DNA of 40,855 nucleotides, taken from positions 1 through 40,855 of the forward strand of contig CANQMZ010000002.1 in NCBI GenBank assembly GCA_947625105.1. Reading direction: 5' to 3'. The notes beneath the pieces were generated by a model. It had not been told where the DNA came from. It searched no databases and saw nothing but the letters and a program-made list of their open reading frames with translations. Position numbers and translations under genes: made by a program. Positions 1 to 19,330 of this stretch are shown in pieces. This stretch comes from an uncultured Parasutterella sp. GTDB taxonomy: Bacteria; Pseudomonadota; Gammaproteobacteria; Burkholderiales; Burkholderiaceae_F. Positions within the stretch are counted from its first letter, which is position 1; each line of letters opens with the position of its first letter.

Positions 1-117
1 GGTGTTGAAGGCCATTTAAGCGAAAACCTGCTGGGTTGGTTTAATGCAGGTTTGCGCGTAGGCACCAAGGGCTACCATGATGAAATGGTGGCAGTAGGTG
101 TCAAGTACATGTTCTAG
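1..117 (+). CDS. C-terminal end of an outer-membrane beta-barrel (autotransporter-like) protein, partial
   Basis: Frame 1 is open from the window edge to TAG at 115-117 and gives 38 residues. The tail reads as amphipathic beta strands separated by a short turn and ends in VGVKYMF, with a terminal phenylalanine. An aromatic last residue on an alternating strand is the BAM recognition signal of outer-membrane barrels, and this spacing resembles the end of autotransporter translocator domains. Everything upstream lies outside the window, so the passenger and exact family cannot be named. A strong terminator follows at 204-241. Confidence 0.6.
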   Translation, partial: GVEGHLSENLLGWFNAGLRVGTKGYHDEMVAVGVKYMF

Positions 118-203
118 TTGAGTCTATTGGCAAGAGGGAGGATAAAGAATCTTTCCTTATTGCCGAAAGGCCGAGACAATAAACTAGAAAATTGCGTTGT
201 TTG

Positions 204-241
204 ATCTTGGGATGTCTGGGGGAGGTGTCCCAAGATTTTTT
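204..241 (+). terminator. Rho-independent terminator of the barrel gene
   Basis: A perfect 9-bp inverted repeat, ATCTTGGGA (204-212) and TCCCAAGAT (228-236), encloses a 15-nt G-rich loop and runs into six T residues (236-241). It lies 87 bases after the barrel stop codon and isolates that gene from the acyl-CoA synthetase downstream. Confidence 0.85.
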
Positions 242-564
242 CATGCTCCCTGTGTGGGTTTCCAGAATGTCCAATCACCGTCTAAACCAGAGGGATCTTT
301 ACAAAAACTTTTCTAGGGAATCTGACCATAAGCCTAATTAGCCACGGGGTAATATGCTTCACTCTTTGCCATTAAATACTCTTGCAAGGTCTCCGAGCTA
401 ATTTACGAAGGCGGTAACGGTTGGAAACAGAGTACAAGGCTACGGAATAGCCGTTTAAAGCAAAGTTTCTCTCATAGAATATTAGGGTAAGTACCCATTT
501 TTCCGTAACGGATTGGGCGTTGTTGTTAGTTAGTCTACCGTAGAGGCAGGATTCGGAGAAAAAA
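242..564. other. Gene-free leader upstream of the acyl-CoA synthetase
   Basis: I see no convincing coding sequence here. Small symmetrical elements are present: GGCTA-cggaa-TAGCC at 438-452 and GGGT-AAGT-ACCC at 485-496, the latter followed by ATTTTT. A possible -10 box TAGAAT lies at 475-480, but its best -35 (TTTAAA, 454-459) is only 15 bp away. GGAG at 555-558 is the ribosome-binding site of the next gene. The hairpins could belong to a 5' untranslated region, but I recognise no riboswitch class. Confidence 0.4.
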
Positions 565-2403
565 TTGATCGATACAAAAGAAGAACGAGCCAAGGCGTTG
601 GATCAATTAAAAACTCTTTGTGAGTTTTTACAGAACAGGGTGATTAAAGGACCGGCTGAAGAGGCCTTGAGGGAATTTAATAAATCCACTCGTCAGTGGG
701 TATCTGTCACCTATAAGGAACTTTCGCAAAAGATTCTTGCTTGGCAAAAGGCTTTTGCTTCCATTGAGCTTTCACGCGGAGATCGTGTGGCCATGCTTTT
801 GCCAAACGGTGTTAATGCCGTCTGCTTTGATCAGGCGGCAATGGCAAACGGTTTGGTGCCAGTACCTCTCCATGCGATTGATACTGCCGCCTCGAGCGCT
901 TATATCTTGCAAGACAGCGGAGCCAGCGTCCTCGTGACTAACCGTAAGAGTAAGTGGGATCTCATCAAAGAATGCAAGTTTGACCTTTCTGCCATTAAAA
1001 GAGTTGTTATTACTGAGGAAGACTCCGAGGATGACGGCTTGGTGATCGGTTTAAGAACATGGTTGCAGAAAGCTAAGCAAGATATCAGACTTCCTGAACC
1101 GCCCACAGAAGAGGATCTTGCCTGTATCGTCTATACCTCCGGGACAACGGGTTTGCCAAAAGGAGTAATGCTCACACATAAAAACGTGGCGAGCAATGTT
1201 CGTTCAACTCTCGCCCATGTCAAGCCCAATATCGGCGATGTGTTTTTGTCCTTCTTGCCACTTTCTCACATGTTTGAAAGAACTGCGGGTTACTACCTCG
1301 CTTTGGCAACGGGCTCCACCATTGTCTACAACAGATCACTTCAATATTTGGCGGAAGATTTCAAAATTGCGAAACCGGATGTTCTGATTTCTGTCCCTAG
1401 AGTCTACGAGCGAATTTACGCCAAACTCAACGAAGCATTGGCTAAAAAGGGAAAAGCCTCAAAACTGCTTTTTGGTCTTGCGGTCAATTCTGGTTGGAGG
1501 GCCTTTTGTAAGCGCAACAAGATTCAGACTCCGGCAATTAAGTTTCCATTGGTCGATAGTTTGGTTTTAGGGACAGTGGGTAACAAAATTTCCAAGATGC
1601 TTACTTCCCAATTCGGCGGCAAACTTCGTGTGGCAATCAGCGGGGGCGCTTCCCTTAACCCTAAGGTTGCCAAGGTGTTTTGTGGTCTGGGTTTGCCAGT
1701 GATTCAAGGTTACGGAATGACGGAGACTTCTCCGATCATCTCCGGCAATAATGTCACTGATAATGATCCCGCAACGGTCGGCCGTGCACTGAAGGATGTT
1801 CAAATTTGTCTTGGCGACAAGAACGAGATTTTGGTCAGGGGCGATCTGGTCATGAAGGGTTATTGGAAGCGGGAAAAGGATACCCGGGATGCAATTACTG
1901 CGGACGGATGGCTTAAAACCGGTGATCAGGGACAATACGATGAGCAGGGCAGGCTGAAGATCGTCGGAAGAATTAAAGAGATTCTTGTAACCTCCACCGG
2001 GGAGAAAATTTCTCCCGTGGACATCGAAAGCGCAGTCGAAACTTTACCTTTGGTTAACCAGTGCTATGCGGTTGGAGACGGGAAACCATACATTGCTGTC
2101 CTTGTTTCTTTGAATAAAGATTTTTGGGCAAACCTTTGCGAAACGCTAAATCTTGATCCCAACAATCCCGAGTCTTTGAAAGACACGAAAGCTCGACATG
2201 AGGTTCTCTCGCAGGTAAAAAAGGCTTGTGGTGCTTTTCCTAATTACGCGGTGCCTAGAAATGTCTCTTTGACGCTTGATGAATGGACAATCGAAAATGG
2301 ATTGCTCACTCCGACATTAAAACTCAAGAGAAAACCTATGGAAGAAAAGTACGAAAAACTCCTTGCCGAAATGTATTCGGGCATCCGCAAAAGTAAAGCT
2401 TAA
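565..2403 (+). CDS. Long-chain fatty acid--CoA ligase (AMP-forming, FAA1/COG1022 type)
   Basis: Activates long-chain fatty acids to acyl-CoA through an acyl-adenylate, feeding phospholipid synthesis, fatty-acid salvage or degradation at the cytoplasmic face of the membrane. The 612-residue protein carries the ANL-superfamily motifs in order: the phosphate-binding loop YTSGTTGLPKG at 190-200, GYGMTETSP from 382, the GD of motif A7 at 453-454 followed by the hinge-region GRIKE, and the catalytic-lysine region GEKISP with K481. The layout resembles the eukaryote-like long-chain synthetases more than E. coli FadD. The start is TTG at 565, supported by GGAG 6 nt upstream; no ATG near it fits as well. 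No other beta-oxidation gene is adjacent, so the direction of flux cannot be told from context. The exact chain-length preference is not visible. Confidence 0.9.
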   Translation: MIDTKEERAKALDQLKTLCEFLQNRVIKGPAEEALREFNKSTRQWVSVTYKELSQKILAWQKAFASIELSRGDRVAMLLPNGVNAVCFDQAAMANGLVPVPLHAIDTAASSAYILQDSGASVLVTNRKSKWDLIKECKFDLSAIKRVVITEEDSEDDGLVIGLRTWLQKAKQDIRLPEPPTEEDLACIVYTSGTTGLPKGVMLTHKNVASNVRSTLAHVKPNIGDVFLSFLPLSHMFERTAGYYLALATGSTIVYNRSLQYLAEDFKIAKPDVLISVPRVYERIYAKLNEALAKKGKASKLLFGLAVNSGWRAFCKRNKIQTPAIKFPLVDSLVLGTVGNKISKMLTSQFGGKLRVAISGGASLNPKVAKVFCGLGLPVIQGYGMTETSPIISGNNVTDNDPATVGRALKDVQICLGDKNEILVRGDLVMKGYWKREKDTRDAITADGWLKTGDQGQYDEQGRLKIVGRIKEILVTSTGEKISPVDIESAVETLPLVNQCYAVGDGKPYIAVLVSLNKDFWANLCETLNLDPNNPESLKDTKARHEVLSQVKKACGAFPNYAVPRNVSLTLDEWTIENGLLTPTLKLKRKPMEEKYEKLLAEMYSGIRKSKA

Positions 2404-2462
2404 AAAAACTTATCACCTAAACATATAATTGGGTCTGTAGCAATTAATTAAAAAAAAGAAAA

Positions 2463-3803
2463 GTGCGTTCCACAGAAACGATAAAAGCGGCGTACAAGGG
2501 TACTGAAAAGCATGAGCGTTCGGAAGCAATGGCTCCCGAATGGATGCTTCATGCAACCGATATGGTGATGCAGTATTACCTAGATAGGGAGTTGGTCCTT
2601 GATCATTGCGTTTTGCGTAAATTCCCAAAGCCGCAAGACAATCACAGATACATGCTTTATGCGCATGTTCCTTTTTGCCGCACGCTGTGTTCTTACTGCA
2701 CTTTCCATAGATTTCTGTTTAAGGAATACAAGGCTCGTGAATACTTCATCAATCTCCGAAAAGAAATGACGGAGGTTCATGATTTGGGCTACGACTTCAC
2801 TTCGATGTACATCGGAGGCGGTACGACAACCGTCTTGATGGATGAACTGGTTAAGACTATCGAGCTCGCAAGGAAACTCTTCCCCTCAATGAAAGAAGTC
2901 TCTTGCGAAACCGATCCTCAAGCCATGGGCGATCCGAGCATTAAGCTGCTGAAGGGCTTAGTTGATCGCATGTCCATCGGTGTGCAAAGTTTCAATGACG
3001 ATATTTTGCGCATGACCGAAAGGGATAAATTCGGTACCGCAGAACAGGTGTTCGAGTACATCGCCAAGGCCAAAGAGGACTTCCCCATTTGCAACGTTGA
3101 CATGATGTTTGGTTTCAGAGGGCAGACTGATGAAATCTTGCAGCATGACATGGATACGGTTTTAAAGCTTCTTCCTCGCCAAATCACTACTTACCCGTTA
3201 ATGGTGACTAGCCAGACTAGGCGGAGTGTTAAGGACAAAATTGCTGCTCCGACTAGCATTCTGGCCCGTCAATACAGAATCATCTTGGATACGCTAAGCA
3301 AGGAATACACCCAACTGTCTTCCTGGGCTTTCGGTCAAGCCACCAATGAGGGCTTTGACGAGTACGTGATTGACAATGACGAATACCTAGGCATCGGCTC
3401 CGGCGCTTTTAGTTTCTTGGGCGATAGCCTATACGTCAATACATTTTCGTTACGGCGCTATAGCGAAAGGCTTCGTGAAGGTCACTGCGGAGTGGAAAGA
3501 AAGAGAACATTTACCAAGCCCAATATTCTGCGCTACAGGTTGCTTTTATCGCTATTTGCCGGAAGGCTTACCCGGAAGTATTTTAGGCAGGTTCACCACG
3601 TGTCGTTGGATCGGGTGCTCTTCAAAGAGATGGCCGCATTGAAGCTTATCGGTGCTATCAAGGAGAATCCAGACGATAAAGACCAACTCATTGTGACCGA
3701 TCGCGGAAAGCTGATTGGACTTTTCATGATGAAGGATTTCTATTCGGCGATGGATAACATCAGGGCCGAGTTAAGAAAGCCTCTGAAAGAGTCCGATATG
3801 TAA
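2463..3803 (+). CDS. HemN/HemW-like radical SAM protein (coproporphyrinogen III oxidase family)
   Basis: Radical SAM enzyme of the coproporphyrinogen-oxidase superfamily. The [4Fe-4S] ligand motif is C72-x3-C76-x2-C79 (CRTLCSYC, numbered from the GTG at 2463), followed by the SAM-binding glycine segment YIGGGTTT and the family's MSIGVQSFND and GIGSGAFSF segments. The C-terminal third matches the HemN C-domain in outline. Members include true anaerobic oxidases, the haem chaperone HemW and several uncharacterised subgroups; I cannot assign this one. Start is uncertain: GTG 2463 has only a weak AAGAAAA upstream, while ATG at 2529 sits only 2 nt behind GGAAG. It lies 59 bases after the acyl-CoA synthetase, and its stop is in the same frame as bcsA downstream. 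Iron-sulphur chemistry fits an anaerobic or microaerobic gut life. Confidence 0.75.
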   Translation: MRSTETIKAAYKGTEKHERSEAMAPEWMLHATDMVMQYYLDRELVLDHCVLRKFPKPQDNHRYMLYAHVPFCRTLCSYCTFHRFLFKEYKAREYFINLRKEMTEVHDLGYDFTSMYIGGGTTTVLMDELVKTIELARKLFPSMKEVSCETDPQAMGDPSIKLLKGLVDRMSIGVQSFNDDILRMTERDKFGTAEQVFEYIAKAKEDFPICNVDMMFGFRGQTDEILQHDMDTVLKLLPRQITTYPLMVTSQTRRSVKDKIAAPTSILARQYRIILDTLSKEYTQLSSWAFGQATNEGFDEYVIDNDEYLGIGSGAFSFLGDSLYVNTFSLRRYSERLREGHCGVERKRTFTKPNILRYRLLLSLFAGRLTRKYFRQVHHVSLDRVLFKEMAALKLIGAIKENPDDKDQLIVTDRGKLIGLFMMKDFYSAMDNIRAELRKPLKESDM

Positions 3804-3823
3804 AGGTTTGTTACCTTAATTTT
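3803..3823 (+). terminator. Possible weak terminator after the radical SAM gene
   Basis: AAGGT (3803-3807) and ACCTT (3813-3817) form a 5-bp stem with a 5-nt loop and are followed by AATTTTTG. The stem is short and the T run is offset by two bases, so read-through into bcsA is likely. Confidence 0.3.
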
Positions 3824-3887
3824 TGTTGGGTTTGTTTTAAGAAGTTTTTCGGGAGGAAAATATCCCAGTAGTCGTTTCCTTTTTTCT

Positions 3888-6566
3888 ATGCTATTTCTAG
3901 ATCTGTATAGTCGTTTGCGGTGCAACCTCAGGGATGCGTCCAGGTTTCTACGGCATAACTGCCGTGGACAGTGGAGCTATTGGATCAATTTTTTGTTTTT
4001 AATGTTGGCATGGCTTTTACTGCCGCTTGAAAACAGGTTTTTTAAAAAACTAATCAAAAACAAAGAGTTTTATTTCCCTCAAATCAATTTCCAGGCCCTA
4101 AGACCACTCGATGGGATAAGGATGTTCATTCAGGTTTTGTACCTGTTGATTTTTTCTGTTAGTAAGGCTTCTGCCGCCTCCAGGGTTGGAAAAAAACGCG
4201 CAAAAAGATTCTTTGTCTTTGCTTGGTTCACCAAATTCCGACTGAAGTTGATCAATAAGCTTAGAAGCCAATCTCAATTGCTTTCTAAGCAGTTGCTTTC
4301 AGAAAAGGCAACTGGCCACGCTTCAGGACCCAAAATCAGCATTTTTAAAAAGATCATTATTGGGTTGCTTCTTGCTATAGGGTTGGTGCTTTACGTCGTT
4401 TGCGTCACTCAACCGTTCAGTTTGGAAGAGCAGATCATATTTCTGATGATTCTTTGGCTAAGCGCCCTGCTGCTTTTCCAGGCCCAAACAAGACTGACGC
4501 TGTTGATGTTGATGGTGATCTCGATTATTGTGTCTTCCCGTTACATGTGGTGGCGCTATAACGAGACCCTCAATCCTAATAGTTATCTTTCAGTCATCTT
4601 CACATGGATGTTGGTTTTGGCTGAAACCTACGCTTTTGTGGTCATGCTCTTGGGGTATTTTCAGGTTTGTTGGGTCTTAGATAGGAAGGCCCGGTCAATG
4701 CCTCCGGACCCGACCACCTGGCCGCATGTGGATATTTTTATCCCGACATACAATGAGCCGCTTGATGTGGTCAAACCTACGGTTTATGCGGCCCTTTGCC
4801 TAGATTGGCCTAAAGAGAAGCTTCATGTCCATGTGTTAGACGATGGGAGCAGAAAGGAATTTGAGGATTTTTCCAGAGAAATCGGCGCCAATTACATCAA
4901 AAGGGAAATCCACAACCACGCTAAAGCAGGCAATATCAACCATGCGATGGGAGTCACTCATGGTGAATTTATTGCGATTTTTGACTGTGACCATGTGCCG
5001 GTAAGATCTTTTTTGCAGAAGACGATGGGTTGGTTTTTGAAGGATGAGAAGATCGCTCTCGTGCAAACGCCTCACCATTTTTATTCTCAAGATCCTTTTG
5101 AGAAAAATCTTCACTTTAAGGAAAATGTTCCAAACGAGAATTCCTTATTTCATGACTTTATCCAAAAGGGTAACGACACATGGAACGCCACGATGTTTTG
5201 TGGCTCTTGTGCTGTAATAAGGCGTAAGGCTTTGGAAGAGGTTGGAGGTATTGCGGTCGAGACGGTGACAGAGGATGCTCATACTTCATTGAAATTAAAT
5301 CGCAAGGGCTGGTCTTCTGCATTTTTGAGTACTCCGCTTTCTGCGGGATTAAGCACGGAGACGCTAGCCGCGCATATCGGTCAGAGGATCCGTTGGGCAA
5401 GAGGAATGGTTCAGATCTTCCGATTGGATAATCCTCTTTTTGGCAAAGGCTTGAGTATTCCGCAACGGCTTTGCTTTCTTAATGCCATGATCCATTTTTT
5501 CCACGGCTTGCCAAGGATCATCTTCTTGATAGCGCCTTTGCCATTTCTCTTCGCCAATATCTATGTCATTTACGCCAGTGCGGTGGCTATATTCGTTTAT
5601 CTGATACCCCATATGGTTCATTCAACCATGACCACTTATGCGATTCATCGTGGTTATCGGTTCCCTTTTATTAGTGCGCTTTATGAAACCATTCTGTCTT
5701 GGTACATTTTTGTGCCTACCTTGGTTGCTATTTTTGCTCCTCATAAAGGGAAATTTAACGTCACCGCCAAGGGTGGAGTTATTGATAGAGCCTACCTGGA
5801 TTGGTCGATTACCAAGCCGTATTTGTGGTTATTAATTCTGAACGTGGCCGGATTCGTCATTGGTCTGTACAGAATGATTGGCTCTAGCCCCTACGAGATG
5901 GTCATGTTAGGTATCAATGTGGGATGGATAGCCTATAACCTTTTAATCTTGTTTGCCGCAATCGCAGTTTCGGTGGAAAGCGTCCAACAAAGGAAATTCC
6001 CCCGTGTTTCCTTTACAGAAAGCGTGAGATTAAAGATTGGAGAGGAGCTGGTTAATGGTACTCTGACAGCCTTTTCCCAGAAGGATTGTTTGGTTCAAAT
6101 CAAGCCGGCGGATTTGGAACTAATTCCTGAAGACCGAAGTGTTGAATTGATTTTTGGGTCAAAATCAAAAGAGGTGCGTTTTAATTGCACCGTGACAACC
6201 ATGTTTTCCAACGGGATTTTGGAGCTGCTCGTTCACCAAGAAACTTTAGCTAAAGAAATGCAATTTACTGCTTGCACTTTTGGTACCCCGGAGATTTGGA
6301 TACAAAAGCAAAGCAAAGTTAGAGGCTACGGAATGCTCGATGGTCTAGTCGCTTTGCTGCGGATGGCTAGGCTTGGAGTAAGTGCCTTCATTGAGTATGC
6401 TCCTCGTAACACTAGTTTGTTATTCCGTATCTTCGCAGGTTCGCTCGGGTGGACGATGAGTTTCCTTCCTCGCTATCCGACACTGAAAGTGAACAAATCA
6501 GGCAATTGCTTTGAGCCTCAGGGCGTCAGATATCCTCTTTTCCGACCTAATCGGAAAATACTCTGA
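3888..6566 (+). CDS. bcsA: Cellulose synthase catalytic subunit BcsA (UDP-forming)
   Basis: Inner-membrane GT2 processive glycosyltransferase that polymerises UDP-glucose into beta-1,4-glucan and threads it through its own channel. At 892 residues it is close to E. coli BcsA (about 870) and resembles it along its length. The catalytic motifs are present: D318-D319 (DDGS), D366-x-D368 (FDCDH), TED with D463, and Q499-R-I-R-W503. The gating loop F623-N-V-T-A-K-G629 is intact. A PilZ domain follows: the arginine motif R702-K-F-P-R706 is kept, but the expected D-x-S-x-x-G reads A728-F-S730-Q-K-D733, so c-di-GMP binding may be weakened. About four N-terminal and four further TM helices flank the GT domain. 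ATG 3888 is the first start after the previous in-frame stop; GGGAGG at 3851-3856 is too far away to serve it. Confidence 0.97.
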   Translation: MLFLDLYSRLRCNLRDASRFLRHNCRGQWSYWINFLFLMLAWLLLPLENRFFKKLIKNKEFYFPQINFQALRPLDGIRMFIQVLYLLIFSVSKASAASRVGKKRAKRFFVFAWFTKFRLKLINKLRSQSQLLSKQLLSEKATGHASGPKISIFKKIIIGLLLAIGLVLYVVCVTQPFSLEEQIIFLMILWLSALLLFQAQTRLTLLMLMVISIIVSSRYMWWRYNETLNPNSYLSVIFTWMLVLAETYAFVVMLLGYFQVCWVLDRKARSMPPDPTTWPHVDIFIPTYNEPLDVVKPTVYAALCLDWPKEKLHVHVLDDGSRKEFEDFSREIGANYIKREIHNHAKAGNINHAMGVTHGEFIAIFDCDHVPVRSFLQKTMGWFLKDEKIALVQTPHHFYSQDPFEKNLHFKENVPNENSLFHDFIQKGNDTWNATMFCGSCAVIRRKALEEVGGIAVETVTEDAHTSLKLNRKGWSSAFLSTPLSAGLSTETLAAHIGQRIRWARGMVQIFRLDNPLFGKGLSIPQRLCFLNAMIHFFHGLPRIIFLIAPLPFLFANIYVIYASAVAIFVYLIPHMVHSTMTTYAIHRGYRFPFISALYETILSWYIFVPTLVAIFAPHKGKFNVTAKGGVIDRAYLDWSITKPYLWLLILNVAGFVIGLYRMIGSSPYEMVMLGINVGWIAYNLLILFAAIAVSVESVQQRKFPRVSFTESVRLKIGEELVNGTLTAFSQKDCLVQIKPADLELIPEDRSVELIFGSKSKEVRFNCTVTTMFSNGILELLVHQETLAKEMQFTACTFGTPEIWIQKQSKVRGYGMLDGLVALLRMARLGVSAFIEYAPRNTSLLFRIFAGSLGWTMSFLPRYPTLKVNKSGNCFEPQGVRYPLFRPNRKIL

Positions 6567-6642
6567 ATGCGGATAAGTAATTAAAATAAGGAAATTAGTC
6601 TGATTTTTTAGAAGTTAGAACCTTTTTCGAAAGAAATTTTTA

Positions 6643-8913
6643 ATGGAAATGGCGACCAGAAAAAAGCTGACAAATAACTTGAGAATCTCGTTATCAACAG
6701 CCCTTATTTGTTGTTTATCTCTTTGTTGTCTGAATCTTGGTGCCCAAGAGACAAAGTACTCAAGAGATGTTATCCCGAACTACCGCACGGATGTCATTCC
6801 TGTTATCAAGAAAGATACGCCGCTCTTTAACTACTCTACTGAGGGCGCGATTGAACAGATCAAGATGACGGGTATCTACAACGAGAGAAGTTTTCGGTTT
6901 TATTCAACCAAAAATGAAGTCATTTCCAAAGCTTCGGTGACTGTTCGTTATACCCCCTCTCCGGCACTGATCCCACAGCAAAGCCAACTCAATGTTTATT
7001 TGAATGGTCAACTGCAGAAAAGTTTGCCGATAACTAAGGAACAGTTGGGTAAGCAAGTATCTGAGACCGTTGAATTTAATCCTAAGCAGATCGAGGATTC
7101 AAACAGGATTACCTTGGAGTTCGTTGGACAATACACAACGGTATGCGGCACTATTGCCAATCCCGCCCTTTGGCTTACAGTGGATAAATCAAGTTATCTC
7201 ACTTTGAATACCCAAAAGATCAGACTGGCCAACGATTTATCGCTTTTTCCAATTCCCTTTATAAATACTCAGAATCCCTCTTCAACCTCTCTTCCGATCG
7301 TTTTTGCTAATAAACCGAGCGATTTGATGAAGACTGCGGCTGCGGTATTTGCTTCCATGGGCGGGGTTAAAGCCCAGTGGCGCGGTATCGAATACCCCGT
7401 CTACATTAACGAGCAGCCCTCTGAACAGAACTACGTGGTCTTCGCGACTAATTTGGACCGACCCGAATTTCTTAAAAACCTGCCTAAAGTCCAGGCTCCG
7501 ACCATATCCATCATTGATGCGCCCAACAGCCTTTATGCCAAGATTTTAGTGATTTCAGGTCGAGACGAGGCCGATCTGATCACGGCAACTCGATGGCTTG
7601 CTACAGCCGACAAAGGCCTGGCTGGTGACACGGTCAGCATTGTCGGATTCAAAGCCCTGCCTGACAGGCTTCCTTACGATGCGCCCGACTGGATCAGAAC
7701 TGATAAAAAGGTAAGCTTTGATCAAATTGCCAAGTACAAGGGGCAATTGACGAGCTCGGGTTTCCATCCGGCTCCCATCAAGCTGGAATTGAAGTTGCCG
7801 CCCGATCTCTTCATGGTCAATCAAAGCAATGTGAATCTAGATCTGCGCTATCGCTACACCAAGCCGACAACGGGCGAGCCGGCACAGATGAGATTCCTCC
7901 TGAATGATCACTTGGTTGAATCTTATGATCTGAGTCCTAAGAGTACGAGTAGCTCCTTTAATTCCCAGTTCTCTTTGTTAAACGGATTAGCCAACCTGTG
8001 GAATGGGACGTCAATCCCTAGCGACATGCTTTCCCCGGAAAACATGCTCACTTTTGACTTTCAGTACGGATTGGCTGTCGCAGGTGGTTCTCCTGAAAAC
8101 TGCAAATCAGTGGCGCTTATTCCCAACCAAGTTGAGGTTGATCCCAATTCTACGATTGATTTCAGTGGCTTCTACCACTTCGCGAAACTTCCCGATTTGA
8201 AACTGTTTACGGTAAGTGGTTTCCCATTTACTAAGTATGCAGACTTGTCACAGACTCTTGTGCTGATTGAGGAAAATGCCCCGGCAAACGTTTTATCAAC
8301 CCTGTTTACCGCCTTGGGTCGCCTGTCTGCGCAAACTGGCTACCCGGCGACCAAAGTGACTGTCGCCTCTTCCGTCAGCAAGGATAATGCTAAGGACAAG
8401 GATATTTTGGTCATTGCTGAGACAGACAGAAAAATCGGTACGATGGATAAGGCCGATCCTCTCATTATTCTCGATGCGTTGAGGCAGAAATTAAAGAGTA
8501 CGTTTTCTCCGGATGCTGACAAGGTGGCCTACAGCACTTACGCTGAAGATACGGGCATTGCGGCTATGGTGCAGTATGAGTCCCCATATAGCTCGGAAAG
8601 GTCAATAGTCGGCCTGTTCGGTGACGGCCAGGATGGAAGTTTCTTGCTCAATAAGCGCCTGATGAATCCGGGAGATTTAAAGCAGATCGGCGGAGCGGTG
8701 GCGATTATTAAACCGAACGCGGAACCGGCTAGCTATATGGTCGGAGAGACGTATTTTTCTGGTTCCCTGCCTTGGCATCAAAGAATTTGGTACTCGTTGC
8801 TTGATCAACCTTTGCTGTTGGTGCTCTTCTCTCTGATCTGCGCGTTGCTGATTGCCGGTGGTGTCTTCTACATCATGCACTCGGTTATACGGTTGCGTAG
8901 CCGTCGTCACTAG
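6643..8913 (+). CDS. bcsB: Cellulose synthase periplasmic/regulatory subunit BcsB
   Basis: Periplasmic partner that anchors to BcsA through a C-terminal TM helix and guides the nascent glucan away from the membrane. The 756-residue product has a signal peptide (hydrophobic run about 15-32, then AQ), alternating carbohydrate-binding and flavodoxin-like regions typical of BcsB, and one terminal TM helix (about 728-750) ending in a basic tail. It follows bcsA by 76 bases. Two start codons sit six bases apart (6643 and 6649), and the ribosome-binding site is only a GAAAGAAA stretch, so the first residues are uncertain. Its stop is 9 bases before bcsZ. Length and motif order are ordinary for the family, and nothing suggests a fusion or truncation. 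Confidence 0.95.
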   Translation: MEMATRKKLTNNLRISLSTALICCLSLCCLNLGAQETKYSRDVIPNYRTDVIPVIKKDTPLFNYSTEGAIEQIKMTGIYNERSFRFYSTKNEVISKASVTVRYTPSPALIPQQSQLNVYLNGQLQKSLPITKEQLGKQVSETVEFNPKQIEDSNRITLEFVGQYTTVCGTIANPALWLTVDKSSYLTLNTQKIRLANDLSLFPIPFINTQNPSSTSLPIVFANKPSDLMKTAAAVFASMGGVKAQWRGIEYPVYINEQPSEQNYVVFATNLDRPEFLKNLPKVQAPTISIIDAPNSLYAKILVISGRDEADLITATRWLATADKGLAGDTVSIVGFKALPDRLPYDAPDWIRTDKKVSFDQIAKYKGQLTSSGFHPAPIKLELKLPPDLFMVNQSNVNLDLRYRYTKPTTGEPAQMRFLLNDHLVESYDLSPKSTSSSFNSQFSLLNGLANLWNGTSIPSDMLSPENMLTFDFQYGLAVAGGSPENCKSVALIPNQVEVDPNSTIDFSGFYHFAKLPDLKLFTVSGFPFTKYADLSQTLVLIEENAPANVLSTLFTALGRLSAQTGYPATKVTVASSVSKDNAKDKDILVIAETDRKIGTMDKADPLIILDALRQKLKSTFSPDADKVAYSTYAEDTGIAAMVQYESPYSSERSIVGLFGDGQDGSFLLNKRLMNPGDLKQIGGAVAIIKPNAEPASYMVGETYFSGSLPWHQRIWYSLLDQPLLLVLFSLICALLIAGGVFYIMHSVIRLRSRRH

Positions 8914-8922
8914 GAGTTAGTC

Positions 8923-10023
8923 ATGAAAGTAAAGCAATTCTTGATTTTTCTCTTTTGTGCCCTCCTCAGCACGAGCGTTTTTGCTTGGGACCTTTGGGAC
9001 GAATTCAAGGCGGTCAATGTGACCGAAGAGGGGAGAGTGGTTGATTACTCGGATACAAAACTCATCACCACTTCTGAAGGTCAATCCTACGGTATGTTCT
9101 TTGCACTGGTGGCCAATGACCGTCAGTCTTTTGACAAGATACTTCAGTGGTCGGAAAAGAATCTCGGAGAAGATCAACCTGCATGGCTGTGGGGAATCCC
9201 CGACGGTAAAAAAGACGGGCAGGGAAAAATCCTTGACACTAACAATGCCACGGATGCCGATATGTGGATCGCTTACAGTCTTCTTGAGGCGGCCCGCATT
9301 TGGCACGAACCAAAATACATGAGTTTGGCTAACAAATATTTGGCAAAACTCAAAGAGATGGTTCGTGATATACCGACGATAGGGAAGGTGATTCTTCCCG
9401 GAAGAGTGGGTTTTGAAGATAAGGGCATTATCACTCTTAACCCAAGCTACTATCCGCCTCACATCTTGAGAAGGTTTGCTGAGCATGATTCCTATTGGTT
9501 GCCTGTGCTCGAGGGATCGATAAATGCCATGATCAGATCGGCTCCCACTGGAGTTGCCCCGGACTGGTCCAAATTTAATGCCGAGGGTGTTCTTATCGAC
9601 GAAAACAAAATGATCGGTAGCTACAACGCCATCAGAACCTATCTGTGGGCTTCGATTCTCTCGCCGAAAGACCAAAACTATCAGGTACTTGCCAAATTGT
9701 ATGCCCCGATGATCGGAATCGTAAGGCAAACGAACATACCTCCCGAGGAAGTGAACATTTCGGATATGACCGTTAGCACGAGGGATGTTAATGCCTTCGG
9801 TGCATGTTTTTTACCATATCTCAGTAACGAGAAAAGCGGTGGAATTATCCGCACGGTGCTGACCGCGAGCAAGATGAAAGGTGATAACTACTACCGCAAC
9901 GTGTTGACGCTGTTTGGCCTAGGCTTCGACTACAAGCACTACGCCTTTAATGAAAAAGGCGAGTTGTTCTTCCCGAAAGTCGACTTGATGGTCCAGGGCG
10001 ATACACCCAAAGCCAATGAATAG
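8923..10023 (+). CDS. bcsZ: Periplasmic endo-1,4-beta-glucanase BcsZ (GH8)
   Basis: Secreted cellulase that trims or relaxes nascent cellulose and is required for correct output in bcs systems. The 366-residue precursor begins with a clear signal peptide ending around VFA at residue 21. GH8 features are present: TTSEGQSYG with the probable acid E52, and the family signature ATDADMW at 109-115 with its two aspartates. The start has GGAG six bases upstream and overlapping the bcsB stop (TAGGAG), indicating translational coupling. A 270-residue ORF on the opposite strand here is a codon-bias shadow. Confidence 0.95.
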   Translation: MKVKQFLIFLFCALLSTSVFAWDLWDEFKAVNVTEEGRVVDYSDTKLITTSEGQSYGMFFALVANDRQSFDKILQWSEKNLGEDQPAWLWGIPDGKKDGQGKILDTNNATDADMWIAYSLLEAARIWHEPKYMSLANKYLAKLKEMVRDIPTIGKVILPGRVGFEDKGIITLNPSYYPPHILRRFAEHDSYWLPVLEGSINAMIRSAPTGVAPDWSKFNAEGVLIDENKMIGSYNAIRTYLWASILSPKDQNYQVLAKLYAPMIGIVRQTNIPPEEVNISDMTVSTRDVNAFGACFLPYLSNEKSGGIIRTVLTASKMKGDNYYRNVLTLFGLGFDYKHYAFNEKGELFFPKVDLMVQGDTPKANE

Positions 10024-10033
10024 GAGCGGCTAA

Positions 10034-11674
10034 ATGGCAGAAACAAGAAGGAGATCAATCAAGTGGACGGGACTTGGTCTCTGGAATGTTTTTTTCATTT
10101 CTGAGTTTTTGCTTTCTAGCTTTTCCTACCTGTCGCTCAATTTTCAATACAACATCATCCTGATAGCCTTTGTTCTTTTTCCTGTCGGGAATCGTTATTT
10201 GCATTGGCTAAGGAATTTCATTGCCATTATCGCTGCGGTTGCTCTTGTCTACAACGAGAGTTGGCTCCCCGGGATTGACAGCATTCGCGGCAATTTCCAC
10301 AATCTTGTGGCGATGGATACCAGCTATTTGTTGGAGTCGGTCTACAACTTCATCAATTGGCAGATGGTGGGGATCGTACTGGCATTGATTATTTTCTATT
10401 ACGCCCTCAGGGATTACATTCGCGTTACCACCTTCACCATCGCTTATTTTCTGATACTTTTTTGCGCTCCGCTGTGGCAGCCTTGGTTTGAACAAACGCC
10501 CCAGGTGCAAACGGCTCAGGTGGTTGAGCCCGTCCACCAAGTTGCCGAACAACAACCCGCTCAAAAGAGCTCTGACTTGATACCGCAAAACGAACCGGCC
10601 AACTCCAAGAATTTAAGCGAGTGGCTGAGGGCTTTTTATTTTTCCGAAAAGGAAAGGCGTGCGGTTTGGCCTGAGCAACTCGGTAAGGAAGATACCCCGT
10701 TCGATATTCTGTTGCTGAACATCTGCTCTTTGTCAAATGATGATATGGCGGCCGCAGGCTTGGATAAGCACCAGGTTTTATCCAAATTTGATATTGCTTT
10801 CGATAATTTCAATTCCGCGACGTCCTATTCAGGTCCCGCTGCTCTAAGGCTATTGAAGTCGGCTTGCGGGCAACCATCGCACGACGATCTCTATGAGGCT
10901 AGAAATCCTGACTGCGAAATAATGAACCGTTTAGCCAGACTCGGATACAACCAATACGTTTTTATGGACCACAGCGGTCAATACGATAATTTTTATCAGA
11001 GTCTCAGGCATCTTGCCGGTCTGAGTCCTCAGTTAAAACCAATGACTTATCCCAAGGCCTACGACTCTTTTGATGAAGAACCGATTGGGAATACGAAGGC
11101 TGTTTTTCAAGACTGGGAAAAGAGCCTGCAAGCCAACAAAGATCAAAGGACCGTTACATTTATAAATCTCATCGCTTTGCATGATGGCAACCGCTTTGCC
11201 GGAAAGAGGAGGCTGGCCGCTTTCAAACCCCGAGCCCAAACCATGCTGGATGATTTGGACGCCCTTATTTCGGATGTGCAGAAGACGGGTAGAAAAGTGA
11301 TGTTGGTGGTCGTGCCGGAACATGGTGCGGCGGAAAGAGGCGACAAGGTCCAAGTTGCTCACCTTAGGGATATTCCCTCTCCCGCGATCACCAAGGTACC
11401 TGTTTTAATCAAGTTTATCGGCCTCACACCGAAGGGTGCTCCTGTCCAGGTTAAGGAACCCACGAGCTATTTGGCGCTCAGCACCCTAATCGGAAGAGTT
11501 TTACAGACAAACTATTTTGCTAAGCCGGAAGGTGAGATCCCATTGACAGACCTCGTTAAGGATCTTCCGCAGACGTATCCGGTTTCTGAAAACGCCAATG
11601 CCGTTGTCCTCAAGTACCAAGATAAGGTCTTCGTCAAGATGGACAAGGGAGATTGGAGAGAATACGCAAAATAG
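10034..11674 (+). CDS. bcsG: Cellulose phosphoethanolamine transferase BcsG
   Basis: Inner-membrane, zinc-dependent enzyme that transfers phosphoethanolamine from phosphatidylethanolamine to cellulose. The 546-residue protein (E. coli about 559) has roughly five TM helices in the first 150 residues, a Pro/Gln/Val-rich linker (about 160-195) and a periplasmic alkaline-phosphatase-fold domain. Characteristic motifs are NICSLS with C231, the ATSYSGPAA nucleophile segment at 262-270, SACGQPSH just after it, and PEHGAA with E429-H430. It has GGAG at 10023-10026 overlapping the bcsZ stop, so it is coupled to bcsZ. In enterobacteria bcsG sits with bcsE and bcsF in a separate divergent operon; here it is the fourth gene of the synthase operon and neither partner is present. 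Confidence 0.93.
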   Translation: MAETRRRSIKWTGLGLWNVFFISEFLLSSFSYLSLNFQYNIILIAFVLFPVGNRYLHWLRNFIAIIAAVALVYNESWLPGIDSIRGNFHNLVAMDTSYLLESVYNFINWQMVGIVLALIIFYYALRDYIRVTTFTIAYFLILFCAPLWQPWFEQTPQVQTAQVVEPVHQVAEQQPAQKSSDLIPQNEPANSKNLSEWLRAFYFSEKERRAVWPEQLGKEDTPFDILLLNICSLSNDDMAAAGLDKHQVLSKFDIAFDNFNSATSYSGPAALRLLKSACGQPSHDDLYEARNPDCEIMNRLARLGYNQYVFMDHSGQYDNFYQSLRHLAGLSPQLKPMTYPKAYDSFDEEPIGNTKAVFQDWEKSLQANKDQRTVTFINLIALHDGNRFAGKRRLAAFKPRAQTMLDDLDALISDVQKTGRKVMLVVVPEHGAAERGDKVQVAHLRDIPSPAITKVPVLIKFIGLTPKGAPVQVKEPTSYLALSTLIGRVLQTNYFAKPEGEIPLTDLVKDLPQTYPVSENANAVVLKYQDKVFVKMDKGDWREYAK

Positions 11675-11695
11675 AAATTAAAGAAGGGCAGTCAA

Positions 11696-12910
11696 TTGTC
11701 AAGTCTTAACGAGACGCCTAAGGGCTCAAGAGTTCATATAGGTATTTTTGGAAGAAGAAATGCCGGTAAGTCGAGTCTGATCAATCGATTGACAAAACAA
11801 AGCATCGCGCTAGTCAGTGAGGTGGCTGGAACGACTACCGATCCGGTGTTTAAAGCAATGGAGCTCTTGCCGGTGGGCCCGGTCATGTTGGTGGACACCG
11901 CCGGCATTGACGATGTTGGTGATTTGGGAAAACTTCGAATTGCTAAGACCCGACAGGTGATGGGGCAGATTGATATTGCTCTGCTCGTGATAGATGCTAC
12001 TGGCGAGTATTCCGAGTTCGAGGCAACTTTGCTCAAAGAGCTTCATGCTCTCGGAGTTGAGACTATTGTGGTACTCAATAAAGCAGATATCGCCGCAAAT
12101 ATCGAGATCAAGGCCACAGAAATCAAAAATCGTGCAAACGAACCGGTCTACATCGTCAGTGCCGAGAAAGACACTGGTTTTGACGATTTGAGGGCAAGGA
12201 TTGTTGAGTTGGCCCCTAGGGCCTTTGATGATGCCCCGCTGTTAAGAGATTTGCTACGCCCCGGAGATACGGTAGTTTTTTGCGTTCCTATTGATACCGC
12301 CGCACCGAAAGGAAGATTGATCCTTCCTCAGGTCCAGGCAATAAGGGATACGCTAGACGCAGGTGCCAACGCTCTTGTCGTAAAAGAAAATCAGTTATCA
12401 GGGCAACTGGCAAACCTAAAAAATCCGCCTTCTTTGGTTGTTACCGACAGCCAAGTTTTTAAGGCAGCTAATGAGATGACGCCGCCAAATATTCCGCTTA
12501 CATCTTTTTCGATATTGATGGCAAGGAAAAAGGGGGATCTAAGCGCATTGGTTGATGGCGCAAAAGCGATCGAGCGTCTCAAGCCGGGAGACAAGGTGTT
12601 AATTGCCGAGGCCTGTACTCACCAATGTCAGGCCGAAGATATCGGTCGGGTAAAAATTCCGAATTGGCTTCAAAAATATGTAGGTGGAAAGTTGGACTTT
12701 GATTGGTACACCGGAGATTCTTTTCCCGAAGAGGTTAGCCAGTACAAGTTGGTTATTCATTGCGGCGCATGCATGATTAATCGCAGAGCCATGCTGTGGC
12801 GGCAGAGGAAATGTTTGGCTAGCGGTGTCCCGATGGTCAACTATGGGGTTTTGATAGCCAAACTTCATGGCATATTGCCTCGAGTATTGTCTCCGCTGAA
12901 CAAAAGTTGA
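11696..12910 (+). CDS. hydF: [FeFe]-hydrogenase maturation GTPase HydF
   Basis: Scaffold on which the 2Fe subcluster of the H-cluster is assembled before delivery to the hydrogenase. The 404-residue protein has an N-terminal GTPase with G1 G19-RRNAGKSS, switch TTTDP, G3 DTAG, G4 NKAD and G5 SAEK, then the dimerisation domain. The C-terminal cluster domain carries C307-x-H309 and H355-C356-x-x-C359, matching the family CxH-x(about 45-53)-HCxxC ligand pattern (45 residues here). The start is TTG 11696 with AGAAGGG at 11682-11688. It lies 21 bases after bcsG and is probably on the same transcript. HydE, HydG and the hydrogenase are not in the window, although they often cluster with hydF. Confidence 0.92.
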   Translation: MSSLNETPKGSRVHIGIFGRRNAGKSSLINRLTKQSIALVSEVAGTTTDPVFKAMELLPVGPVMLVDTAGIDDVGDLGKLRIAKTRQVMGQIDIALLVIDATGEYSEFEATLLKELHALGVETIVVLNKADIAANIEIKATEIKNRANEPVYIVSAEKDTGFDDLRARIVELAPRAFDDAPLLRDLLRPGDTVVFCVPIDTAAPKGRLILPQVQAIRDTLDAGANALVVKENQLSGQLANLKNPPSLVVTDSQVFKAANEMTPPNIPLTSFSILMARKKGDLSALVDGAKAIERLKPGDKVLIAEACTHQCQAEDIGRVKIPNWLQKYVGGKLDFDWYTGDSFPEEVSQYKLVIHCGACMINRRAMLWRQRKCLASGVPMVNYGVLIAKLHGILPRVLSPLNKS

Positions 12911-12956
12911 TCGGGGCCGGGAAGCCGAATTTGCACACCGGACCGACCACCGTTCT

Positions 12957-12976
12957 AACCGGAGTTGCGGTTTTTT
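12957..12976 (+). terminator. Probable terminator of the bcs-hydF transcript
   Basis: AACCG (12957-12961) pairs with CGGTT (12968-12972) around a 6-nt loop and runs directly into TTTTTT (12971-12976). The stem is short but sits where a transcript must end, between hydF and the convergent prfC. On the minus strand no T run follows the stem, so it would act for the plus strand only. Confidence 0.45.
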
Positions 12977-12985
12977 AGAAGGAAT

Positions 12986-14593
12986 TCAGAGTGTTTGCCC
13001 GTGTTCACGAGTCGTATGGAATTCGACTTTTGGCCAATGCTTTTGTGTAGTTTGCAGGTTATAGACACTCGTAGCCAAATAAACAATATTGCCGTCAGCA
13101 TCGGTGGCTAATCGGGCTGATTGCTCTTTCATGAAATCTTTCTTGGTTTGCTCATCCGGGAAAACCAACCATCTGGCGGTGGAAACCGGGGTGTTCTCAT
13201 AGAGGGCATCCACTTTGTATTCGGTTGCCAAACGCTGTGCGACGATCTCGAACTGCAAGGGACCGACTGCGCCAATGAGTAAACCACCCAGCTCGTCCTC
13301 AAAAACCTGAATGGCGCCTTCCTCTCCAAGCTCCTTAAGCCCTTTATGAAGCTGTTTGGCTTTAAAAGGATCTTTAGCTCGGGCAACGCGGAAAAGCTCT
13401 GGAGCAAAGTAGGGGATGCCCTTGAAGGTCAGAGCCTCCCCTTCAGTCAAGCTATCTCCAATGTGGAGTTGCCCATGGTTATAGATGCCGATAATGTCGC
13501 CGGCTACGGCTTCATTCATGATGACTCTGTCGTTAGCCATGAAGGTAAGCGCATTGGGGATTTTCATCTCTTTGGCTTCTCTTACATGGAAGCATTTCAA
13601 ACCGGACTTGTATTTTCCCGAACAGACACGGAAAAACGCGATTCGATCCCTGTGCTTGGGATCCATGTTTGCCTGGATTTTGAAGACAAAACCGGAAAAC
13701 TTGGCCTCGTCAGGTTCAACCATTCGAAGTTCGCCGTCTCTCGGTTGAGGGATAGGAGCCCAGTTGACTAACGCTTGGAGCACATCTTCCACACCGAAGT
13801 TATTGACCCCGGAGCCAAAAAATACGGGAGTCTGTTCTCCTTTGAGAAATCTTTCCAGTGAAAATGGTTCACTGGCACCTTGGACTAATTCAACACTCTC
13901 CCTAACGAATCCCATCTCCAAAGGAAATAGTTCATCTAATCTTGGATTGTTCAACCCTTTGATAATTTCCACGTCATCGGTAAGTTTTTCTCCACCGGGA
14001 GTGAAACGCTTGAGTTTGTCGTCGAGCAAAGAAAAAACTCCGCGGAATGTTTTTCCCATACCGATAGGCCAAGTAATGGGAGCGCAATCAATCTTCAATA
14101 CGTTTTCGATTTCGCCTAACAATTCGATGGGATCTTTAACTTCGCGGTCGAGCTTATTGATGAAAGTGATGATTGGTGTGTTTCTCAGGCGGCAAACCTC
14201 TAGAAGTTTGATCGTTTGGGCCTCGACACCTTTGGCGGCATCAATGACCATGACTGCGCAGTCCACGGCCGTCAATACTCTGTAGGTGTCCTCAGAAAAG
14301 TCTTCGTGTCCCGGCGTATCCAACAAGTTGATGACGTGGTCTTGATATTCGAACTGCATCACCGAGCTACTCACTGAGATTCCGCGCTGTTTTTCCACTT
14401 CCATCCAGTCACTAGTGGCGTGACGGGCGGCCTTACGTCCTTTGACGGCTCCGGCCAATTGAATGGCTCCCCCGAAAAGCAGAAGCTTTTCCGTAAGAGT
14501 GGTCTTACCAGCGTCAGGGTGGGAAATGATGGCAAAAGTTCTCCGCCTGTTTACTTCCCTGTCTAGTTCGGTGTTTATCGCAGTCATAACCAT
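12986..14593 (-). CDS. prfC: Peptide chain release factor 3 (RF3)
   Basis: Translational GTPase that recycles RF1/RF2 from the ribosome after peptide release. The 535-residue protein starts with the RF3 hallmark [18 protein letters not shown], then switch [16 protein letters not shown] and the G4 motif NKLD; length and order are normal. It faces hydF tail to tail. Two ATG codons lie six bases apart (14591-14593 and 14585-14587 on the plus strand), and neither has a clear ribosome-binding site, so the first two residues are uncertain. Start to start it is divergent from the uracil permease, with 126 bases between the two likely starts. Confidence 0.96.
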
Positions 14594-14719
14594 AAAATGA
14601 AATTCTTAAAGTCTGCGAATTTTAATGCACTGGTAGGGTAGGAATTCTCCCTGATACAAGCAGATTCAGAAAAAGTGTGTTTCCAGCTTTTAAAATTCGG
14701 GAAACCCTTGGAGAAACAA

Positions 14720-16012
14720 ATGTCGAAATCGTATTTTCCTTCATGGACATTAAAGACTGAAGGCGTCATTGCTCCCGATGAAAGACTGCCGGCTCATCAG
14801 ACCTTTGCCATGGGTCTGCAGCATGTGGTGATCATGTTTGGATCAACGGTTCTCGCTCCGTTAATCATGGGGCTTGATCCTAACGTGGCGATCCTTATGA
14901 GCGGCATTGGTACCTTGATTTTTTTCTTTATGGTCGGAGGCCATGTCCCGAGTTATTTGGGTTCTAGTTTTGCCTTTATTGGCGTGGTAATCGCGGCAAC
15001 CGGCTACAGCGGTTCAGGGCCTAACCCGAACATTCCGATTGCGATGGGAGGCGTGATCGCTTGCGGCATGGTTTACGCTTTCATCGGTTTAATTGTTATG
15101 GTCGTTGGCGTCCGTTGGATTGAAAAACTGATGCCTCCAATAGTTACCGGCTCCATTGTGATGACAATAGGTCTGAATCTGGCTCCTGTGGCCATCAAGG
15201 GTATGGGCACAACACAATTTGAACAGTGGTACGCCTCAGTTGCCGTTCTGATCATCGGCTTTATGGCAGTCTACCTCAGGGGCTTTTTGCAAAAGATGCT
15301 GATTCTTGTAGGCATTGTGGTTTCCTACATTCTCTATTGGTTGCTTACCAATATAATGGGACTCGGAAAGCCTATTGATTTTCGTCCTTTGTTTGATGCT
15401 TCCTGGATTGGAGTACCTCAGTTTTCGGCGCCGGTTTTCCAATGGGAAGCGATCATTCTCATTGTTCCTGTTGTGGTCATCCTCGTTGCTGAAAATCTAG
15501 GTCATATCAAGGCAGTCAACATCATGACACACAGAAATTTGGATCCCTATCTCGGTCGTTCCTTCTTTGGCGATGGTATCGCTACGATTGTGGCCGGCTG
15601 TTTTGGTGGCCCTGGTGTTACGACATACGGCGAGAACATTGGCGTGATGGCCGCAACCAAGGTTTATTCCACGCTGATTTTTCCGGTAGCTGCTTTCTTC
15701 GCTATTTGCCTTAGTTTTTCTCCGAAATTCGGTGCGTTGATTCAGACGATTCCCGGTCCGTTGTTAGGCGCTGTCTCGGTTGTGGTTTTTGGATTCATTG
15801 CCGCCGCAGGCGTCCGAATCATGATCGATAATCGACTGGACTTATCTACCAGCCGAAATTTAATCATCGTGGCGGTAACCTTGATCGTGGGTGCCGGAGA
15901 TTTCAGCTTAAAAGTTGGCAGTTTTTCTTTAGGTGGAATAGGAACTGCCACATTGGCCGCGATCCTCTTAAATCTAATCATGGGAAAGGGAAGTACTAGA
16001 TCTCAGGAATGA
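14720..16012 (+). CDS. Uracil permease, NCS2 family (UraA/RutG type)
   Basis: Inner-membrane nucleobase:proton symporter, most likely for uracil. About 14 hydrophobic segments are visible. Family markers include LQHVVIMFGSTVLAP in TM1, AENLGHIKA in TM8 and GGPGVTTYGENIGVMA in TM10, whose glutamates line the uracil site in UraA; the TTYGEN form favours uracil over purine carriers. I chose ATG 14720 (430 residues) because GGAG at 14710-14713 lies six bases upstream; the frame is open back to 14675, but those extra residues are not family-like. No pyrimidine-degradation genes accompany it, so salvage is the simplest role. It is the last core gene before the AT-rich accessory segment. Confidence 0.92.
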   Translation: MSKSYFPSWTLKTEGVIAPDERLPAHQTFAMGLQHVVIMFGSTVLAPLIMGLDPNVAILMSGIGTLIFFFMVGGHVPSYLGSSFAFIGVVIAATGYSGSGPNPNIPIAMGGVIACGMVYAFIGLIVMVVGVRWIEKLMPPIVTGSIVMTIGLNLAPVAIKGMGTTQFEQWYASVAVLIIGFMAVYLRGFLQKMLILVGIVVSYILYWLLTNIMGLGKPIDFRPLFDASWIGVPQFSAPVFQWEAIILIVPVVVILVAENLGHIKAVNIMTHRNLDPYLGRSFFGDGIATIVAGCFGGPGVTTYGENIGVMAATKVYSTLIFPVAAFFAICLSFSPKFGALIQTIPGPLLGAVSVVVFGFIAAAGVRIMIDNRLDLSTSRNLIIVAVTLIVGAGDFSLKVGSFSLGGIGTATLAAILLNLIMGKGSTRSQE

Positions 16013-16239
16013 TTGTGAAGGAAAGGTTCCGGAGCGGGATACCTGGATATTCACCACATGAGCTTTATTTTGTTTTCCGGTGCGTCAATAATATGTGATT
16101 CGAGCTTTATGCTAAGTTCGTATGCAAGATATAAAAAAGAGCTAGGTGGAAAACGGTCTGCCTTTAATTTTCCATCAATTTCTATCGCTATATTTTGCGT
16201 TATTAAAAAGGTGTCGCAACCGTGTCAGGTGACTCAAAG

Positions 16240-19234: not shown

Positions 19235-19330
19235 ATGAAGGAAGAGGTTATTTTCAGAACGTTATGGTTTTTCGTTCTGTTGAGTACCGAATCCTATGCA
19301 TCCACAGTCAAATACCTAATCGAACATTGA
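19235..19330 (+). CDS. Tiny ORF (31 aa), signal-peptide-like, unknown
   Basis: ATG 19235 follows AAGGAG (19225-19230) with 4-nt spacing and encodes 31 residues ending at TGA 19328-19330. The sequence has a charged start (MKEE) and then a hydrophobic stretch FRTLWFFVLL and a small-residue segment ending near SYAS, like a short secretion signal or one-helix membrane peptide. Its last 15 bases overlap the 3' end of the minus-strand gene. Not recognised; possibly a toxin-like peptide or a gene remnant. Support is only the ribosome-binding site and composition. Confidence 0.25.
   Translation: MKEEVIFRTLWFFVLLSTESYASTVKYLIEH
19255..19279. repeat. Perfect 7-bp inverted repeat
   Basis: CAGAACG (19255-19261) and CGTTCTG (19273-19279) flank an 11-nt loop, in the gap between two convergent genes. 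No T run follows on either strand. It is the second hairpin within 100 bases. Confidence 0.5.

Follow-up and report, generated by a model that had tools for sequence, protein, structure and literature searches.

Can four bcs genes sustain the synthesis of a phosphoethanolamine (pEtN)-modified cellulose, and where does the polymer go if neither the export pore BcsC nor c-di-GMP control accompanies them? The question is raised by a locus of an uncultured Parasutterella sp. (contig CANQMZ010000002.1 of assembly GCA_947625105.1). The window referred to below is the whole stretch of DNA that was analysed, 40,855 nucleotides in length, and its relevant features are the following.

2463-3803: radical SAM gene of the coproporphyrinogen-oxidase family, upstream of bcsA
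3888..6566, plus strand: bcsA, 892 aa, catalytic subunit of cellulose synthase, its N-terminal domain of the E. coli type; intact GT motifs (LDDGS, FDCDH, TEDAHT and QRIRW) and intact gating loop (FNVTAKGG)
5970..6290, plus strand: degenerate PilZ region of BcsA, with RKFPR at 5991-6005 and AFSQKD at 6069-6086
6643..8913, plus strand: bcsB, 756 aa, periplasmic co-polymerase subunit
8923..10023, plus strand: bcsZ, 366 aa, homologue of the GH8 periplasmic endoglucanase with a signal-peptide-like N-terminus; general acid Glu52 kept
9625..9627, plus strand: codon of BcsZ Asn235, which aligns with the E. coli catalytic base Asp243
10034..11674, plus strand: bcsG, 546 aa, phosphoethanolamine transferase; active-site residues Cys231, Ser266, Glu429 and His430 kept (E. 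coli Cys243, Ser278, Glu442 and His443)
11696-12910: HydF, downstream of bcsG

The first-pass annotation had described a four-gene bcsA-bcsB-bcsZ-bcsG operon with a radical SAM gene on one side and hydF on the other, devoid of bcsC, bcsE, bcsF and bcsQ. The open reading frames and matches to curated models confirm the four genes, and both the flanks and the absences from the operon hold. All four genes (3888-11674) lie on the plus strand, separated by 76, 9 and 10 nt. BcsA scores 1022.7 bits against NF008558/TIGR03030 (cut-off 992) and can be aligned with E. coli BcsA over almost its entire length, N-terminal domain included; it has the GT2 residues of a UDP-forming cellulose synthase (D, DxD, TED, QxxRW and the gating loop FxVTxK). 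BcsB matches PF03170 (2.2e-167), BcsZ matches NF008305 (1.3e-105), and BcsG, which aligns with its E. coli counterpart in the same manner as BcsA, matches TIGR03368/PF11658 over its full length (1e-164; 548.8 bits, cut-off 410.2). Signal-like N-terminal stretches were recognised by eye in BcsZ and BcsB. Rfam and tRNA scans of the window returned no features, and its promoter and terminator signal did not rise above that of shuffled sequences. Further downstream the window has its own points of interest: hydF, the gene of an [FeFe]-hydrogenase maturation GTPase, begins 22 nt past bcsG with no neighbouring hydrogenase gene recognised; a single 962-aa ORF at 16222-19110 holds all five domains of an MmeI-type (type IIL) restriction-modification protein; and an adjoining 488-aa ORF on the minus strand (19316-20782) has no Pfam match at 1e-10.

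The simplest account of so small an operon is a split locus, with BcsC and BcsF encoded elsewhere or hidden in assembly gaps; the annotation had allowed for a distant BcsC, and a bcsC-bcsF cluster at another site would have reduced its proposal to just this. The genome is indeed an assembly of 215 contigs, and in one relative (G014) bcsC does sit on another contig, but a search of the whole assembly (2.10 Mb, 99.24% complete) found neither BCSC_C nor BcsF at E<=10. BCSC_C is likewise lacking from two other genomes of the genus that are 99-100% complete, from 16 minimal-only genomes that are 94% complete or better, from the 10-contig assembly G062 (98% complete) and from the single-contig genome G057. 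Because BcsC and BcsF are both absent from an entire 99%-complete genome, the split locus was rejected and appears exceedingly improbable. The genome-wide search also found no BcsE, and outside the operon BcsQ is represented only by weak, generic ParA/MinD-type matches; BcsR is not in the operon, and neither BcsD nor BcsK was seen within it. A divergent BcsC was considered as well: a profile built from six full-length BcsC proteins of the family gave only generic TPR matches in BcsC-less genomes, and the match in the Parasutterella genome is a 579-aa TPR protein encoded beside lolB and ispE.

The arrangement is not a peculiarity of one species. A family sample of 67 genomes contains 35 that encode BcsG and nine with BCSC_C; 25 encode BcsG with neither BcsE nor BcsC and are termed minimal-only here. 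Synteny across the family, which the annotation had proposed to compare, revealed 30 minimal A-B-Z-G loci, the window included (in one, the contig ends before bcsA), contiguous in six genera (g1, g2, g4, g9, g16 and g17) amid changing flanks. They occur in Parasutterella, Turicimonas, Sutterella, Duodenibacillus and relatives, and a separate scan identified as carriers Parasutterella excrementihominis YIT 11859, P. muris, P. secunda, Turicimonas muris YL45, Sutterella wadsworthensis, S. massiliensis, S. seckii, Duodenibacillus and Aphodousia. The suspicion that this was a distinct variant is thus borne out, on the scale of a family. In the BcsG tree the 30 minimal loci form one clade (SH-aLRT 93) whose sister is the BcsG of complete operons; one locus labelled minimal in that run (L039, genome G008) has an adjacent BcsE and belongs with the complete type. 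Among BcsG-encoding genomes BCSC_C is found in 9/35 within the family versus 21/22 elsewhere in the order (Fisher p=2e-7, a guide only since the genomes are related), and the single exception elsewhere is 85% complete.

While the flanks vary by genus, the four-gene unit holds together, as illustrated by the window and its congeners. In Turicimonas and other Parasutterella (L044, L045, L057 and L060) bcsABZG lies directly upstream of murA-hisGD, whereas in the window it is bordered by the radical SAM gene and hydF, and it has therefore moved as a unit; a zinc-ribbon/NUDIX-like gene in g2 and an acetyltransferase-like gene in g4 are further neighbours, the names of all these flanking genes being assigned by eye. 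No conserved fifth gene accompanies the operon; antisense shadow ORFs in high-GC loci were disregarded in reading the gene order. In one locus (L073 of G057, 5827-8349) BcsA is encoded by two ORFs 9 nt apart, one for the catalytic part and one for the PilZ part; either the gene is truly divided or an indel arose in sequencing.

A loss of c-di-GMP control is indicated at two levels. No GGDEF protein was found in the Parasutterella genome at E<=10, in a search that covers GGDEF-type cyclases and whose control was positive in E. coli and others, and 24 of the 25 minimal-only genomes are equally devoid of them; the exception, G055, has eight, in a genome that is 79% complete and 5% contaminated. 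GGDEF tracks BcsE among BcsG-encoding genomes, occurring in 7/8 with BcsE versus 2/27 without (p=4e-5), and the Sutterella genomes with complete operons (G051, G056, G059 and G060) encode one or two GGDEF proteins each. At the level of the synthase, both PilZ motifs (RxxxR and D/NxSxxG) are present in none of 29 minimal BcsA proteins as opposed to 4/4 BcsC-linked ones. In the window RxxxR survives as RKFPR, D/NxSxxG is replaced by AFSQKD, and the match to Pfam PilZ (21.6 bits) falls under the cut-off of 22.5; a control fragment from L075 was left out of this comparison. Of the features that characterise a c-di-GMP-activated BcsA, the complete pair of motifs and a genomic diguanylate cyclase of the GGDEF type are both missing. 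PilZ motifs are imperfect predictors of c-di-GMP binding, as seen with RiGT2 (PMC10374906) and BgsA (PMC5567048); since the binding motif is broken and the genome encodes no GGDEF protein, the PilZ domain would no longer serve as a c-di-GMP switch. The catalytic side of minimal BcsA is unaffected, with GT motifs and gating loop intact and catalytic residues invariant.

In R. sphaeroides a salt bridge between R580 and E371 helps to keep the gating loop shut until c-di-GMP binds (PMC10374906). R580 (R. sphaeroides numbering), the first arginine of the motif, is also gone from most minimal BcsA proteins; in the window's own clade the equivalents of R580, R584 and E371 are kept and only D/NxSxxG is broken. 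The synthase of that clade could therefore still be held by the autoinhibitory salt bridge, in which case another activator might be needed.

The pEtN transferase has kept its catalytic residues: the active-site Cys, Ser, Glu and His of BcsG are invariant in all full-length loci, and minimal BcsA retains its N-terminal domain. That BcsG may work without BcsF, as the first-pass annotation proposed, is likely, but this is less of a surprise than was supposed. Structures of the E. coli complex show BcsF recruiting BcsE and making no contact with BcsG (PMC11470070), and the N-terminal domain of BcsA suffices for BcsG recruitment (PMC11379886). A requirement of BcsG for BcsF is rejected on these grounds, and the loss of BcsF is unsurprising because its role in E. 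coli is to recruit BcsE, not BcsG.

BcsZ, on the other hand, has changed at its catalytic centre. E. coli BcsZ requires Glu55 and Asp243, and in the D243A variant cellulase activity is undetectable and secretion is strongly diminished (PMC11379886). All 30 minimal BcsZ proteins keep the acid Glu and carry Asn at the position of the base; among BcsC-linked BcsZ the residue is Asp in 6/7 and Asn in the operon of G008, a protein that was counted on the minimal side in one of the comparisons. Of 53 enterobacterial homologues, 50 carry Asp and three carry Asn, and in the loci of these three (L113, L140 and L157) BcsA keeps its c-di-GMP motifs. Asn is thus fixed in the minimal lineage and not unique to it, which disqualifies it as a strict marker, and its presence in G008 and in the three enterobacterial homologues implies that it may be tolerated. 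No acidic residue specific to minimal BcsZ stands out as a replacement base except at position 165 (Asp/Glu in all minimal proteins and mostly not in others), which is a lead only. By the Glu55 plus Asp243 standard (E. coli numbering) the window BcsZ does not appear to qualify as an active GH8 enzyme; with the canonical base lost, its role is probably to bind chains or to cleave them at a slow rate.

Taken together, the losses of BcsC, BcsE, GGDEF proteins, PilZ motifs and the BcsZ base could be read as successive steps in the decay of a complete type II system, with the rest to follow; the absence of BcsG altogether from the relatives G053 and G058 and the divided bcsA of G057 would fit such a course. 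A remnant would hardly be expected to persist in about 30 genomes of six genera with four intact reading frames and invariant catalytic residues in BcsA and BcsG, nor to stay together where the flanks differ between the window and its congeners, and the divided bcsA is confined to one genome and may be an indel. Decay is accordingly an improbable explanation.

The relatives provide both the complete type and what lies between. The complete operon of G051 runs A-B-Z-C-EAL-SBP-GGDEF-BcsE...G and has intact PilZ motifs, and the same genome holds a separate minimal A-B-Z-G operon in which they are broken; both types coexist in G051, G056, G059 and G060, a natural control for the role of each part. 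This coexistence had gone unnoticed in the first-pass annotation, as had the lack of GGDEF proteins, the degenerate PilZ motifs and the Asp-to-Asn change in BcsZ. Between bcsC and bcsE of the G051 operon (L050; G051:C1:455000-474900, 1-15089) lie genes for an EAL protein, for a solute-binding protein of family 3 and for what is apparently the only GGDEF protein of that genome, so that a single operon contains a c-di-GMP circuit of its own. In G011 (L071; G011:C20:116000-135900, 5052-15788) the five genes follow one another as A-B-Z-G-C, the PilZ motifs are degenerate and the genome encodes one GGDEF protein, which places this locus midway from the minimal to the complete type. In the related G014 a minimal-type operon is found together with bcsC on a separate contig (L077). 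As G011 and G014 pair a minimal-type operon with BcsC, export through BcsC is either ancestral or regained.

We give about even credence to the reading that BcsABZG is a complete, vertically maintained pEtN-cellulose synthase module that has come free of c-di-GMP control and of export by BcsC. Judging from the intact motifs, BcsA and BcsB would use UDP-glucose to build a beta-1,4-glucan and pass it into the periplasm, where BcsG, held by the N-terminal domain of BcsA, would by homology add phosphoethanolamine to the emerging chain. With pore and switch both lost, the product is probably a modified cellulose that is neither switched nor exported in the textbook way, and with no BcsC it would most likely stay in the envelope. 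In the least certain step, the polymer may remain between the inner and outer membranes as a zwitterionic pEtN-glucan akin to osmoregulated periplasmic glucans (OPGs).

The main rival to this endpoint is secretion of pEtN-cellulose through an unlinked outer-membrane channel unrelated to BcsC, for instance of the TolC type as proposed for XcsAB. Secretion would make sense of the retention of BcsG and BcsZ homologues, as in secreting systems, and of the BcsC still paired with minimal-type operons in G011 and G014, and there is precedent both in the proposed cyanobacterial XcsAB-TolC route (PMC12430437) and in the BcsC-less type III and alphaproteobacterial operons (PMC7112194, PMC12430437). The TolC route is itself a proposal, however; in none of the genera is an outer-membrane gene conserved beside the operon, nor does it have a linked HlyD-like adaptor. 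Loss of cellulase activity abolishes or much reduces secretion in E. coli (PMC11379886), and here the base of BcsZ is gone. Another exporter, which the first-pass annotation had also allowed for, is possible, though less likely than not. Periplasmic retention is the preferred, if unproven, endpoint; it is favoured by the lack of BcsC and of a linked channel, a change in BcsZ of a kind that would impair export in E. coli, the absence of OpgG and the precedent of Synechococcus sp. PCC 7002, in which a cellulose layer lies between peptidoglycan and outer membrane (PMC12430437), and it is opposed by the pairing with BcsC in G011 (A-B-Z-G-C) and G014 (bcsC on another contig). A PF04349 search found no OpgG in the Parasutterella genome, and OpgG occurs in 1/35 BcsG-encoding versus 10/32 BcsG-less genomes (p=0.002, confounded by lineage); genus g15, which lacks both OpgG and BcsG, counts against the pattern. 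The fullest form of the retention reading, in which a c-di-GMP-independent, constitutive pEtN-cello-glucan with a non-cutting BcsZ replaces the missing osmoregulated glucans in the periplasm, is put forward tentatively, as a possibility that falls short of probable. If true, a biofilm cellulose machine has been turned into an envelope component in gut Sutterellaceae.

Loss of BcsC alone is not new, since alphaproteobacteria (PMC7112194) and type III systems (PMC12430437) already provide operons without it. In the open-access literature we found no family of gut betaproteobacteria in which a four-gene version with BcsG and without GGDEF proteins is fixed, and no work on cellulose in Sutterella or Parasutterella. 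Here a BcsG-type system has been kept family-wide after losing both of its supposed core features, BcsC export and c-di-GMP control, with P. excrementihominis, P. muris, T. muris and S. wadsworthensis among its bearers. Its four proteins may offer a system in which to study pEtN transfer free of c-di-GMP, BcsE, BcsF, BcsQ and BcsC, and the purpose of a non-exported cellulose becomes a testable question.

Compared with the known systems, the module shares the E. coli-type BcsA N-terminus, BcsB, the GH8 BcsZ and the BcsG catalytic residues with the E. coli type II machinery (BcsRQABZC plus BcsEFG), but has no BcsC, BcsE, BcsF, operon-linked BcsQ or genomic GGDEF protein, a broken D/NxSxxG and Asn for Asp in BcsZ; lacking BcsC, BcsE, BcsF and the PilZ switch, it would work partly like type II without being a full member. 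The complete Sutterella operons such as that of G051 have homologous A, B, Z and G and a sister BcsG clade, and differ in possessing BcsC, BcsE and GGDEF and EAL proteins of their own, and in that the PilZ motifs are intact and BcsZ keeps its Asp. Like the type III and alphaproteobacterial operons, for instance of Agrobacterium (PMC7112194, PMC12430437), it is a cellulose synthase operon without bcsC, but one of only four genes, with BcsG among them, with BcsA and BcsG of the E. coli type, with c-di-GMP coupling lost, and with a home in gut betaproteobacteria. Cyanobacterial XcsAB and periplasmic cellulose (PMC12430437) provide the example of cellulose made without BcsC and residing beneath the outer membrane, with an HlyD-like partner in place and neither BcsB nor BcsG. 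The osmoregulated periplasmic glucans (OpgGH plus pEtN transferases) rely on an unrelated synthase and on OpgG, absent from this genome, and resemble the predicted product, by analogy only, as pEtN-substituted periplasmic beta-glucans.
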